From contig NZ_CP031611.1 of the NCBI RefSeq assembly GCF_001687475.2, positions 496,001-560,000 on the forward strand: a stretch of DNA of 64,000 nt. Direction: 5' to 3'. Positions 5,549-36,517 of the stretch are shown here, in pieces. Origin of the DNA: Campylobacter hepaticus (GTDB taxonomy: Bacteria > Campylobacterota > Campylobacteria > Campylobacterales > Campylobacteraceae). The notes below the pieces were generated by a model. That model saw nothing but the letters and a program-made list of their open reading frames with translations, was not told the origin of the DNA and ran no database searches. The position numbers and the translations under genes are program-made. Within the stretch, counting starts at the first letter, position 1. Each line of letters begins with the position of its first letter.

Positions 5549-5783
5549 ATATAATAATCAAAATTTAAAAAAACAAATACAAGATTTAAGATATGAATTA
5601 AGTATAGTTTTAGAAGCTATGCTTTTATATTCAGGAGTTAAAAGAGAAAAATTAGAAGATGCAATACAAGCTTATATAGATAATATAGATAAAGTTTTAG
5701 AAAATTCTGATAAAGAAGGGGTTGATGAAATTTTAGAACTTGTAGAATTTCTAAGAAAGAATCACAAAGATCTTTTTAAATGA
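5541..5783 (+). CDS. Small acidic helical protein, unknown function
   Basis: 80 residues overlapping the phosphoesterase by 8 bases; GGGAAG lies before the ATG. It is predicted to be all helical: a charged N-terminal stretch, then a central helix around LEAMLLYSGVKREKLEDAIQ, then an acidic C-terminal helix. There is no signal peptide, membrane segment or cysteine. Overlap on both sides suggests it is co-translated with its neighbours. No family recognised. Confidence 0.75.
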   Translation: MSEYNNQNLKKQIQDLRYELSIVLEAMLLYSGVKREKLEDAIQAYIDNIDKVLENSDKEGVDEILELVEFLRKNHKDLFK

Positions 5784-6412
5784 AAAAAATTATTTTATTG
5801 TTTTTTAATTTATATATTTTAAGTTTTGCTAATACTTATGAAAAATTTAATGATTTTGCCTACGAAAAAAAGTCTAATAAAAATTTCAAAATTCAAGAAC
5901 TTCAACTAGTAACTTTTTTTAAAAATAAACAAAATTGTCTTGAATTTTTAATAGAAAAAGATCAAATACGTATTATAAAAGCTTATCATTCTTGTCAAGA
6001 ATTAGTTGAAAATAAAGATTTTATAAATTTTTTAAATAATGATTTTTTAGAAATTTATAAAAATAATAATGACAACATAAATCAAAACTTAAAAGCTTTA
6101 AAAAATACCATGCAAGATATTATGATATATTACAAACTCCACTATGCTTTTAGCAAAGATATAAAAGATATGAGTAAAAATACAAATTTAAGTATTTTAA
6201 ATATAGATGAAAAAGAAGGAGGGGTTTTATTATATAAAATCAATCAACAAGCTTGCATAGGTATAGAACTTAATAAACATAATAACAAAATGGCTATGAA
6301 AATTTATGGCATAGAAAATTCAGATAAAGAATGTAAAATATTTATACAAGCTCCTTTTTTTAAAGAACTTTCATATACACAAAAAGATTTTAAGTGGTAT
6401 TATTTAGAATAA
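5780..6412 (+). CDS. Periplasmic protein of unknown function
   Basis: 210 residues. The ATG overlaps the preceding TGA (ATGA). A signal peptide of about 17 residues ends near SFANTY, so the product is probably periplasmic. Four cysteines are spread through the mature part (CLEFL, SCQEL, ACIGIE, KECKIF) and could form disulfides. The content is rich in Lys, Asn and Ile. I do not recognise a domain; I believe C. jejuni has a homologue at the same place. Confidence 0.75.
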   Translation: MKKIILLFFNLYILSFANTYEKFNDFAYEKKSNKNFKIQELQLVTFFKNKQNCLEFLIEKDQIRIIKAYHSCQELVENKDFINFLNNDFLEIYKNNNDNINQNLKALKNTMQDIMIYYKLHYAFSKDIKDMSKNTNLSILNIDEKEGGVLLYKINQQACIGIELNKHNNKMAMKIYGIENSDKECKIFIQAPFFKELSYTQKDFKWYYLE

Positions 6413-6746: not shown

Positions 6747-7733
6747 ATGAATAAATTTTCTATGGCTTTAGCTTTATTCTTATTTGGAACTTGCGCTTTT
6801 GCTCTAGATGAAAATTTAGAAAAAACTAAAGGTGCAACAGGCATTGATTTGCCTACTGCTCAATGGGCTTTACCCAAAGCCATAAATAAAGATGGCACTA
6901 TTGATGAAAATCAATTACCCAAAAATTCACAATATTCTAAAATGGTTATTTTAGGAAATAAAATCATCAATGAAACAAGTAAATATGTAGGTCCTCAAGC
7001 TAAAGATCCCAAAAAAAGATTTACAGGAAATAATTTTTCTTGTTCAAGTTGCCATGCTAATGCAGGGACAGTTAAAAATCAATTACCTTTTGTAGGAATT
7101 TGGGGAAGATTTCCTCAATATGATATGAAAGAAGATAGAGTTATAGCTTTAGTTGATAGAATCAATAGCTGTTTTCAAAGATCTATGAATGGAAAAAGTA
7201 TGCCTACTGATACTCCTGAAATGATGGCTATGCTAACTTATATGCAATGGCTTTCTCAAGGTATTCCTGTGGGAGCTAAAACAGAAGGGCAGGGGCTCGA
7301 AAAAATAGAATTTATCTCAAGAGCAGCTGATCCTAAAAAAGGTAAAATTATTTATATGAATAAATGTGCTGCTTGTCATCAAAAAAATGGACAAGGGCTT
7401 AAAAATACCAGTGATACAGGAGATTATTATATTTATCCGCCACTTTGGGGAAAAGATAGCTATAATACAGGAGCAGGAGTATACCGCCTTATAAAAGCTG
7501 CTAATTTTATCAAAACTAATATGCCTAAAGGATCTCCTGATTTAAGTCTTGAAGATGCTTATGATGTAGCATCTTATATCAATTTACAAAAACGTCCTAT
7601 AAAAGCAAATAGAGAGCAAGATTTTCCAGATAGAAGGGTTAAACCTTTAGATATGGATGTAGGACCTTATGATGATAATTTTTCTATTATTCAACACCGC
7701 TTTGGACCTTATACAGATATGATTAAAAAATAA
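6747..7733 (+). CDS. tsdA: Di-heme cytochrome c, TsdA-type thiosulfate dehydrogenase / tetrathionate reductase
   Basis: 328 residues with a signal peptide ending near CAFALDE, so periplasmic. There are two c-heme motifs: CSSCH (99-103) and CAACH (207-211). TsdA features: INSCFQRSMNGK places C142 as the distal Cys ligand of heme 1, and TNMPKG places M259 as the Met ligand of heme 2; the ligands I recall for C. jejuni TsdA (C138, M255) differ from these by a constant 4. TsdA interconverts thiosulfate and tetrathionate; in Campylobacter it is reported to favour tetrathionate reduction as an anaerobic electron sink. Own promoter and terminator, so monocistronic. Confidence 0.87.
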   Translation: MNKFSMALALFLFGTCAFALDENLEKTKGATGIDLPTAQWALPKAINKDGTIDENQLPKNSQYSKMVILGNKIINETSKYVGPQAKDPKKRFTGNNFSCSSCHANAGTVKNQLPFVGIWGRFPQYDMKEDRVIALVDRINSCFQRSMNGKSMPTDTPEMMAMLTYMQWLSQGIPVGAKTEGQGLEKIEFISRAADPKKGKIIYMNKCAACHQKNGQGLKNTSDTGDYYIYPPLWGKDSYNTGAGVYRLIKAANFIKTNMPKGSPDLSLEDAYDVASYINLQKRPIKANREQDFPDRRVKPLDMDVGPYDDNFSIIQHRFGPYTDMIKK

Positions 7734-7743
7734 ATACATATAA

Positions 7744-7771
7744 TAATCAAGGTAGAAATATACCTTGATTA
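7744..7771 (+). terminator. Terminator of the di-heme cytochrome gene
   Basis: An 11-bp perfect stem (7744-7754 with 7761-7771) around a 6-nt loop, 10 bases after the stop codon, followed by a T-rich tail. Confidence 0.8.
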
Positions 7772-8155
7772 AATCTTTTTAAAATCATTTAATTTAACCA
7801 TTTATAAACCTTTTAGTCCCGAATTTTAGTCTTAAAATACTTAAATTTTAATCCTTATATTTTCAAAACTTCATAAAAATCATTTTTTTAAAAATTATAA
7901 ATATTTATCCAAACTATATTTTTATCATTTTATTTTATTAATGATAAAAAATTAAAAATAAAATTTTTAAAATGATATTTTTAAGCTCTAAAAATTTATA
8001 TTAATATTTTTAATTTACAAAATAAAATAATAATTTTTTTACATTATATTCTATGGATAAATTATAAATAACCAAAAAGTAAAGTCTTTAAAACATGAAA
8101 TATAGGAACTTTTATATGATAGAGTATAAGAATTTATAAATATATATAAAAAAGT

Positions 8156-8175
8156 TTGAAAATTACAGTTTTCAA
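8156..8175. other. Candidate difH recombination site
   Basis: Inverted repeat: TTGAAAA (8156-8162), a 6-bp centre TTACAG (8163-8168), and TTTTCAA (8169-8175). Two recombinase half-sites around a 6-bp crossover is the geometry of dif-type sites. It lies about 190 bp upstream of xerH in a gene-free stretch. Epsilonproteobacteria use a single XerH acting at an atypical dif called difH. I do not remember the difH consensus well enough to match base by base. Confidence 0.55.
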
Positions 8176-8319
8176 TATAAAATAACTAAATAAAACAATT
8201 TTTACCTTTTATCATATTATCTTACAAAGTTTATAAGTTTTAATTAATATAAATATTTTAGTACTTTTTTAATCCTTATAAAAAATATATAAAAAAGCTT
8301 TTTTTTACTAAGTTAGTAT

Positions 8320-8325
8320 TACAAT
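8320..8325 (+). promoter_or_regulatory. -10 box for xerH
   Basis: TACAAT 39 bases before the xerH ATG, downstream of a T-rich stretch; TAAGGA serves as ribosome site. Confidence 0.4.
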
Positions 8326-8364
8326 ATGTTTTAAAATTAAAGATTTTAAATAAGGAATACATTA

Positions 8365-32646: not shown

Positions 32647-35193
32647 ATGTCTTTTATACAAGAATATGATAAACTTGTCAAAGAAAGAGCAGTTTTAGGT
32701 ATTCCACCTCTTGCTTTAAATGCACAACAAACTAAACAATTATGCGAACTTTTAAAAATCCAAAATGATGAAAATTTAATCAATCTTTTACAAAACCGTG
32801 TTAACCCGGGTGTGGATGATGCAGCTTTAATAAAATGCGAATTTTTAGATTCTATATTAAAAGATAAAATCACTACTCCAAGTATAGATAAAAAACATGC
32901 CTTAAAAATGCTTAGTACTATGCTAGGAGGTTATAATGTTAAAGTTTTAATTGATGCTTTAAAAGATGAAAATATAGCCAAAGATGCAGCACAAATGTTA
33001 AAAAATATTATTTTTGTGCATGATAATTTTCATACTATAGCTCAACTTAGTAAAACAAACCCTTATGCTAAAGAAGTTTTACAAAGTTGGGCTGATGCAG
33101 AATGGTTTACTAAAAAAGAAAAATTACCTCAAATGATTTCTTGTATAGCATTTAAAGTCTCAGGTGAAACAAATACTGATGATTTAAGCCCTGCAAGTGA
33201 TGCTTTTACAAGAAGTGATATTCCTTTACATGCTAATGCTATGCTTAAAATAAGACAAGTAGGATCTTTAGAAAAGATTAAAGAACTCAAAAAAAGTGGT
33301 CGCGAAGTGGTTTATGTAGGAGATGTAGTAGGAACAGGATCTAGTAGAAAATCAGCTATTAATTCCATACAATGGCATTTAGGCAAAGAAATAGAAGGTA
33401 TTCCTAATAAACACAGTGGAAGCATTATCATAGGTTCTACTATAGCACCTATTTTTTTTAATACCGCACAAGATAGTGGTGCCTTACCTATTGTTTGCGA
33501 TACATCTCATTTAGAAATGGGTGATGAGTTTGAAATTTATCCTTATGAAGGTAAAATTGTAAAAAATGGATTAGTTATAGCAGAATTTCAATTAAATCCT
33601 AATACCATTTTTGATGAAGTTAAAGCTGGAGGAAGAATTCCTTTAATCATAGGACGCGGACTTTGTACCAAGGCAAGAGAATTTTTAGGTTTAGAAAATG
33701 AAAACATCTTTACTAAACCTAAACAACCTCAAAATTCCAATAAAAATTACACCTTAGCTCAAAAAATATTAGGTCGTGCTTGTAATCTTGAAGGAGTACT
33801 TCCTGATATGTACATAGAACCGCGTACGCTCACTGTAGGCTCTCAAGACACTACAGGTCCTATGACTAGAGATGAAATTAAAGAACTAGCAAGCCTAGGT
33901 TTTAATGCAGATTTTGTTATGCAAAGCTTTTGCCATACTGCAGCTTACCCTAAAATAAGCGATTCTAAACTCCACCAAACTCTACCTGAATTTATAACAA
34001 GTCGAGGTGGAGTAAGCTTAAAACCAGGAGATGGAGTTATTCACTCCTGGCTTAACCGCTTTGTACTGCCTGATACAGTAGGAACTGGTGGAGATTCTCA
34101 TACTCGCTTTCCTATAGGCATTTCATTTCCAGCAGGAAGTGGACTTGTAGCTTTTGCCGCAGTAACAGGATCCATACCTTTAAATGTACCCCAAAGTATT
34201 TTAGTACGTTTTAGCGGAGAATTACAAGCAGGAATTACTTTAAGAGATCTTGTAAATGCTATACCTTATTATGCTATCAAACAAGGGCAACTTAGTGTCG
34301 AGAAAAAAAATAAAAAAAATATTTTTGCAGGAAAAATTTTAGAAATTGAAGGTTTGCCTAACTTAAAGGTAGAACAAGCTTTTGAACTCAGTGATGCTAG
34401 TGCTGAAAGATCAGCAGCTGCTTGCAGTGTAGAATTAAGCATAGAAAGTGTAAGCGAATATATTAAATCAAATATTTCTTTAATTGAAGCTATGATAAAA
34501 GCAAACTATGAAAACAAACAAACTCTTATTAGAAGAGCTACAAAAATGAAAGAATGGCTTAAAAACCCTACTCTTTTAAAAGCAGATAAAAATGCTCAGT
34601 ACGCCTATATTCTTGATATCAATCTTAATGATATTAAAGAACCTATTTTAGCTTGTCCTAATGATCCTGATGATGTAGCAACTTTAAGTGAAATTTTAGC
34701 TGATGAAAAACGTCCAAAAAATATAGATGAAGTTTTTGTAGGATCTTGTATGACCAATATAGGGCATTACCGAGCTTTAGGTGAAATTTTAAAAAATAAA
34801 GGTATGTTACAAACTAGGCTTTGGGTAGTTCCACCAACTAAAATGGATAAAGCACAACTTATTAAAGAAGGGTATTATAGTATTTTTGGTGCTGCAGGAG
34901 CTAGAATAGAAGTCCCAGGATGTTCTTTATGTATGGGCAATCAAGCAAGAGTAGCTGATAATGCTATAGTATTTTCAACTTCCACAAGAAATTTTGACAA
35001 TCGTATGGGGATGGGTGCAAAAGTTTATCTAGGAAGTGCTGAACTTGCAGCAGTTTGTGCAATTTTAGGAAAGATTCCAAGCAAAGAAGAATATTTGCAA
35101 ATTGTTAATGACAAATTAAATGATGATTATAAAGCAAATATATATAAATATTTAAATTTTAATGAAATTGAAAATTTTGAACTTGAAGATTAA
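32647..35193 (+). CDS. acnB: Aconitate hydratase B
   Basis: 848 residues, close to E. coli AcnB (865). It carries the HEAT-like N-terminal domain, then the swivel domain placed before the catalytic domains, as in AcnB. The substrate loops [13 protein letters not shown] and GTGSSRKSA are visible. The [4Fe-4S] ligand cysteines are in [11 protein letters not shown] and [10 protein letters not shown]. It interconverts citrate and isocitrate in the TCA cycle and may bind mRNA when iron-poor (known for E. coli). AAGGAG precedes the ATG. Confidence 0.97.
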
Positions 35194-35211
35194 ATTTTTT
35201 AAAGGAATATA

Positions 35212-35694
35212 TTGAAATTATTGTTTATTTCATTTTTTTATTTTACAATTAATCGCATTATTAGCTATAATAAAAATTATAAAATATTTTTTGATAAAAA
35301 TAATTATTTTTTTAATAAAATATCAAAAAATATTTATAAAATTAGGGAGCTTAATCTTTTATTTGTAAAAATCATGATTCAATTTAATCTTCATCTTAAA
35401 CTTATTAAAAACATAATCAAAAAATATAATATTTTAAAAATATATTTTTTATATCATGCTGATAAAAACATAAATCATTTTAGAAAAAATATAAAAAATT
35501 ATTTCACTTATAATTTAAATAAAATATCTTTTTATTATAAAATTAAAGCTTTTCAATATAATAAAACTATTTTTAAAAATATTAGCAAACAAGCTATTAA
35601 GCAAGAATGTATTATTAGATATTTTATTAATACACCTTATTGGTTTATATTTGATTTTAAAAAATATTTTTTAAAATATCTTAGTTTAAAATAA
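35212..35694 (+). CDS. Orphan Lys/Ile/Asn/Phe-rich ORF of very low GC
   Basis: 160 codons from TTG at 35212, with AAAGGAAT 5 bases before it. My count over 35221-35700 gives 58 G or C in 480 bases, about 12% GC, far below the flanking genes. An uninterrupted frame of this length is unexpected at such composition, because TAA would arise often, so it is probably translated or recently was. The product is very basic, rich in Lys, Ile, Phe, Tyr and Asn, with a hydrophobic N-terminus (LLFISFFYF). I recall an ankyrin-repeat gene here in C. jejuni, but no ankyrin motif is visible. Function unknown. Confidence 0.5.
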   Translation: MKLLFISFFYFTINRIISYNKNYKIFFDKNNYFFNKISKNIYKIRELNLLFVKIMIQFNLHLKLIKNIIKKYNILKIYFLYHADKNINHFRKNIKNYFTYNLNKISFYYKIKAFQYNKTIFKNISKQAIKQECIIRYFINTPYWFIFDFKKYFLKYLSLK

Positions 35695-35767
35695 AATTAA
35701 AATATATAAAAATATAAATAAATTTCTAAATTTTAAAGATAAAAAATATTTTATGGAGGCAACAAAA

Positions 35768-36517
35768 ATGAAAACTGCATTCATCACAGGTGCAAGTTCA
35801 GGCTTTGGAAAAGCTTGTGTAGATGCTTTTATACAAGAAAATTATAAAGTCATCGCTCTTGCGCGTCGTAAAGAACGTCTAGAAGAACTCAAAGAAAAAT
35901 ATAAAGATCAAATTTATACTTTATGTATAGATATAAGAAATCAAGATACCATTTTACAAAATATAGAAAAACTTCCTCAAGAATTTAAAAACATTGATAT
36001 TTTATTTAATAATGCAGGGTTAGCCTTAGGTACAGATGAATTTGATAAACTTTCTCTTGAAGATATTAATACCATGGTTGATACAAATATAAAAGGTTTT
36101 TTATATATCGCAAAAGCTCTTATACCTATACTAAGAAAACAAAAAAATGCCTATATTTTTAATCTTGGTTCCGTTGCAGCACGTAATCCTTATTTTGGAG
36201 GCAATGTTTATTGCGGGACTAAGGCCTTTGTAGGACAATTTTCACTAGCTTTAAGAAATGATCTTCGAGGAAGTAATATTAAAGTTACCAATATTGCCCC
36301 AGGACTTTGTAAAACCGAATTTAGCCAAGTACGTTTTAAAGGAGATATACAAAAAGCAAACGCTCTTTATGAAAATACTCAATTTATTAGTGCTAATGAT
36401 ATTGCTAAAGTAGTTATGTCTATTATCAATTTACCACAACATATTAATGTTAATGAAATTGAACTTATGCCCATAACTCAAACATGGAATGGATTTTATA
36501 TAGAAAGAACACGATGA
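35768..36517 (+). CDS. Short-chain dehydrogenase/reductase, YdfG-like
   Basis: 249 residues from the ATG at 35768, placed by TGGAGG 9 bases upstream; the ATG at 35753 overlaps that site and is rejected. Classical SDR: GASSGFG (8-14) for NAD(P), NNAG (81-84), and catalytic S135, Y148, K152 (Y-x3-K). It is similar to YdfG, which oxidises 3-hydroxy acids such as serine or reduces malonic semialdehyde. The stop overlaps the next start (ATGA). Confidence 0.88.
   Translation: MKTAFITGASSGFGKACVDAFIQENYKVIALARRKERLEELKEKYKDQIYTLCIDIRNQDTILQNIEKLPQEFKNIDILFNNAGLALGTDEFDKLSLEDINTMVDTNIKGFLYIAKALIPILRKQKNAYIFNLGSVAARNPYFGGNVYCGTKAFVGQFSLALRNDLRGSNIKVTNIAPGLCKTEFSQVRFKGDIQKANALYENTQFISANDIAKVVMSIINLPQHINVNEIELMPITQTWNGFYIERTR

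Follow-up and report, generated by a model that had tools for sequence, protein, structure and literature searches.

A 160-codon open frame at 12% GC in Campylobacter hepaticus is probably an in-place remnant of a genus-wide ankyrin-repeat gene

The 160-codon open frame at positions 35212-35694 of the window (the whole stretch of 64,000 nucleotides of Campylobacter hepaticus DNA that was analyzed) is, in our assessment, quite probably the in-place remnant of an ankyrin-repeat gene that is found throughout the genus between acnB and a short-chain dehydrogenase gene. The lineage leading to C. hepaticus would have ceased to need the ankyrin protein, probably not long after it diverged from C. bilis; deletions would then have removed approximately 250 codons, most of the ankyrin repeats among them, and the remaining sequence would have drifted to the AT-rich balance that is set in this genome by mutation alone. 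The start signal and approximately 104 codons in the original frame appear to have been kept, followed by a short out-of-frame stretch, a return to the ancestral frame, and a final frame change that leads to the stop codon. The remnant is probably still translated, in which case its product would be a basic, helix-prone peptide with no sequence-dependent use. The features of the locus are as follows.

32647-35193, forward strand: acnB (aconitate hydratase 2), the intact upstream neighbour; an open frame with 91.5% amino acid identity to its C. bilis counterpart.
35202-35214, forward strand: ribosome-binding site AAAGGA and TTG start, apparently inherited from the ancestral ankyrin gene; the nearest relatives have the same motif and TTG.
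35212-35694, forward strand: the 160-codon frame, probable eroded remnant of a Cj0834c-type ankyrin gene (syntenic best matches, profile match, collinear DNA anchors).
35212-35248, forward strand: anchor to gene nt 1-37 (start of the signal peptide), in the ancestral frame; score reached by 0 of 200 shuffles.
35401-35483, forward strand: anchor to gene nt 316-398 (KYNILKxYFxY..), in the ancestral frame; 0 of 200 shuffles.
35525-35589, forward strand: weaker anchor to gene nt 856-920 (ankyrin repeats), from the alignment, one off the ancestral frame and past a deletion of approximately 365 nt; 5 of 200 shuffles.
35627-35655, forward strand: weaker anchor to gene nt 980-1008 (NTPYxF), in the ancestral frame again; 5 of 200 shuffles.
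35735-35762, forward strand: anchor to the last codons of the ancestral gene, containing the GGAGG ribosome-binding site that serves the next gene; 0 of 200 shuffles.
35768-36517, forward strand: intact short-chain dehydrogenase gene of the Cj0833c type (PF00106, E=3e-47).

The start of the dehydrogenase gene at 35768 is conserved in the alignment of starts; the upstream ATG at 35753 (35753-35770), which was taken automatically as the start of this ORF, is an artefact lying inside the end of the old gene. The acnB gene keeps the same place in relatives, and its spacing to the dehydrogenase gene is 602 nt here versus approximately 1300 nt in relatives, being thus shorter by approximately 700 nt.

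The frame runs for 160 codons without a stop, from the TTG at 35212, preceded by the ribosome-binding site TTAAAGGAATATA, to the TAA at 35692-35694, as the initial annotation had described. Its count of 58 G/C in the 480 bases of 35221-35700 was reproduced exactly, and the GC content of the ORF itself is 12.2%. The accompanying guess that stops should occur roughly every ten codons at such composition was equally accurate: when the stretch was dinucleotide-shuffled 2000 times, the frame of the ORF contained on average 16.1 stops (one per 9.9 codons) and at least 6, and no forward frame had a stop-free run of more than 105 codons. In a survey of 464 kb of the genome (30% of its length, 20 sample stretches), only 1 of the 389 ORFs of at least 100 aa had a GC content below 17.5%, and only 1 of the 5 AT-rich stretches contained a stop-free run of more than 47 codons; in both cases it was the 160-codon frame, the remaining AT-rich stretches having runs of just 34-47 codons. 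The openness of the frame exceeds what chance would produce in random sequence, but the sequence is the descendant of a gene and not random. The ORF matched no Pfam family (0), and nothing was matched among NCBIfam and solved structures. The predicted product of 20 kDa has a hydrophobic N-terminus and a pI of 10.1, the latter because of A-rich codons (AAA/AAT/ATA-type); AlphaFold, run on the single sequence, gave an all-helical, weak model (pLDDT 71, pTM 0.31). The gene was not mentioned in the C. hepaticus papers covered by word searches.

By acnB, C. bilis is the nearest of the named genomes found; by the dehydrogenase, it is one of the nearest. At this locus C. bilis, C. jejuni, and others carry a gene of mostly 402-417 codons, which in C. 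jejuni we take to be Cj0834c. In the nearest relatives it begins with TTG (LKLLF...), and its N-terminus is signal-peptide-like; in the C. bilis protein the ankyrin repeats (Pfam Ank_2 etc.) are located within residues 226-393. Of 38 orthologous records, in which some species are represented twice, 37 have the stop codon overlapping the start of the dehydrogenase gene as ATGA. With the C. bilis protein as query (E <= 1e-20), the gene was matched in all other genomes of the genus searched (48/48, one of them a contig-edge fragment on a small contig), with no internal stop. The present genome was the only one in the search to give no match at this threshold, and at E <= 10 it gave just two weak ankyrin-like matches, both elsewhere. 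The product of Cj0834c has been detected and is predicted to be non-cytoplasmic (PMC3541203).

The initial annotation had proposed a tblastn check against Campylobacter genomes; with the ORF as query, the matches in relatives were weak and fell mostly at the ankyrin locus, 8 of the 10 best lying in frames of approximately 420 codons that immediately precede this short-chain dehydrogenase gene, so the frame is not without relatives. In a profile built from 28 distinct orthologous sequences, codons 40-129 of the ORF match positions 80-173 in frame, and the other two frames gave no significant match to it. The anchors, for which solely blocks beating shuffles were accepted (a cheap-gap pairwise aligner over-fitted the AT-rich sequence), are collinear with the ancestral gene from the start codon through the stop, at gene offsets 0, 315, 855 and 979 (the two weaker ones), and 1201, counted from zero. 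Homology and synteny are observed directly and, since the best matches are syntenic, the profile match is in frame, and the anchors are ordered, the ORF is best read as what survives of the Cj0834c-type ankyrin gene after erosion at its original locus, with no replacement. The frame had been described as resembling nothing known and as replacing an ankyrin-type gene; the profile and anchors match that very gene, and both statements were set aside. The remnant shares with the Cj0834c-type gene the locus, the TTG start, the ribosome-binding site, and a recognisable N-terminal sequence, and differs from it in having 160 versus approximately 412 codons, with most of the ankyrin repeats deleted and the signal-peptide cleavage region gone. 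It lacks the full length (402-417 aa, approximately) and the ATGA overlap with the next gene, and no ankyrin repeat is found in it by Pfam, whereas the C. bilis protein scores E=2e-22.

All three codon positions of the ORF are at the unconstrained GC level. The GC contents of positions 1, 2, and 3 are 0.15, 0.125, and 0.094, as compared with 0.40, 0.29, and 0.14 in the genes of the window, and the fourfold-degenerate sites of the window have 0.136; special selection for composition is therefore unnecessary. Considering aligned positions shared by the near relatives, the remnant has lost 71% of the C and 86% of the G, and approximately 20% of the A/T has changed. The remnant would read out directly the GC level (approximately 12%) that results from mutation alone in C. 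hepaticus. AT-biased mutation in bacteria is argued for in PMC2936535. Low GC with genome reduction has been described for C. hepaticus (PMC5554493), a known case of genome reduction and lowered GC content (PMC5554493, PMC6371046).

The unusual residue of the remnant is the absence of stops. When ancestral-frame codons were evolved under an estimated neutral matrix, 12.5 stops were expected overall across the frame and 4-7 in the 96-104 codons of the ancestral-frame part, where none was observed. The probability of zero stops is 0.0002-0.013, varying with the alignment and the choice of ancestor, and 0.04-0.08 when restricted to 39 unambiguous codons. The last third of the frame is open as well. 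Apparent frame changes follow approximately codons 104 and 148, in addition to the truncation; indels in the alignment sum to multiples of three up to approximately codon 148, with the exception of one compensated stretch, the AT-rich parts being ambiguous. The initial impression of too few stops was correct and is explained only in part, neutral simulations still expecting 4-7 in the ancestral-frame part. The frame was chosen for being open, and with five AT-rich stretches found in 30% of the genome, approximately fifteen would be expected overall; the excess of openness is probably real but moderate, and reflects either luck or the maintenance of translation through the frame.

If translation was maintained, the protein itself would be useless and its amino acids would drift, while selection removes stops and frameshifts; ribosomes passing from acnB through the gap may shield the mRNA or counteract premature termination ahead of the dehydrogenase gene and whatever lies beyond it. 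We consider this possible, though on balance rather unlikely. Consistent with it are the scarcity of stops, which other AT-rich stretches of the genome do not share beyond 34-47 codons, and the conservation of the ribosome-binding site and start, all three G's of which are kept, whereas the body lost 50 of 63 conserved G/C (chance approximately 0.01); moreover, no terminator-like site was found in the gap between acnB and the dehydrogenase gene, and in relatives the ATGA overlap couples the ankyrin gene to the next one. The direct coupling, however, is already lost here, the frame ending 73 nt ahead of the dehydrogenase start, and stop avoidance is only moderate, given that the most open of perhaps 15 stretches was chosen. 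That the frame is kept only for translation, with ribosomes bridging the operon gap and the peptide drifting to mutational balance, is offered more tentatively still. The simplest reading of the decayed gene is that it would be translated by default; we infer both the translation and the reason for the openness, be it luck or ribosome passage for the operon.

The amino acid sequence of the remnant has no detectable constraint, which distinguishes it further from the Cj0834c-type gene, because dN/dS on the C. hepaticus branch is approximately 1 (0.87-1.22 by three-taxon estimates, with wide bootstrap intervals, from 0.35 to >2.9) and changes are flat over codon positions. Differences from C. 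bilis at the three positions are 0.40/0.32/0.33, the usual signature being lost, versus 0.08/0.03/0.28 for acnB and 0.11/0.05/0.33 for the dehydrogenase. An early loss of constraint on the C. hepaticus branch is suggested by its dN (0.37), which is close to its dS (0.31-0.43). For C. bilis, the three-taxon estimates of branch dN/dS are 0.27-0.43, and relaxed constraint may have begun in the ankyrin gene of that species too. These values weigh against a shortened gene whose product, a fast-evolving basic protein made of the old N-terminal part with the ankyrin repeats absent, is still needed: amino acid changes are as common as silent ones, and residues identical across the nearest relatives are substituted. 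An open frame, a kept start, a hydrophobic N-terminus, and an all-helical model would fit such a protein, but the quality of the model is low (pTM 0.31), the searches yielded neither a family nor a solved relative, and the signal-peptide cleavage region and ankyrin repeats are gone; we regard this explanation as improbable. Similarly, the option raised at first that selection keeps a basic protein finds no support at the amino acid level, whereas the alternative of a decaying gene agrees with the homology, the synteny, and a dN/dS of approximately 1. The extreme composition might suggest that a foreign or newly arisen gene displaced the ankyrin gene, but this, including the earlier option of a foreign origin, is hardly credible in view of the synteny, the DNA anchors that match both ends and the interior of the old gene in order, the inherited start and ribosome-binding site, and a GC content equal to that of the window's own silent, unconstrained sites.

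The decayed ankyrin gene is ordinary in kind, an instance of gene decay in a reduced genome, and its open frame comes down from the parent gene and does not signal a new protein. It resembles the AT-drifted pseudogenes of reduced, host-restricted bacteria in its deletions, its dN/dS of approximately 1, and a GC content at mutational balance at all codon positions, and differs from them in that its frame is still open for 160 codons. The chicken-liver species C. hepaticus would have abandoned a gene present in every other Campylobacter genome searched, and a long open frame at 12% GC need not mean a working gene, since it can be a shell inherited from one. Should the scarcity of stops hold across strains, the locus would provide a clean test case in which translation is selected for and the product is not.

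Several further observations were made in the window and its counterparts. For the intact C. bilis ankyrin gene (L044:3769-5007), the branch dN/dS is raised to approximately 0.3; for the same codons, the pairwise dN/dS between the C. jejuni-like genome G063 and C. jejuni 414 is 0.06. Positions 7734-8364 (631 nt, 13.5% GC) contain no long open frame and are flanked by cytochrome c and recombinase genes; the counterpart is 489 nt long in C. bilis and approximately 4.8 kb in G063. This region was dropped as a decay control, its ancestor not being identified as a single gene, and served for composition only. Both C. hepaticus and C. bilis retain an intact copy of the adjacent cytochrome c gene (at 6747-7733 in the window), whereas in G063 (G063:C1:803857-804839) it is broken by several stops, an opposite case of retention. 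Finally, a 210-codon ORF at 5780-6412 has a GC content of 19.2% and no match in NCBIfam.
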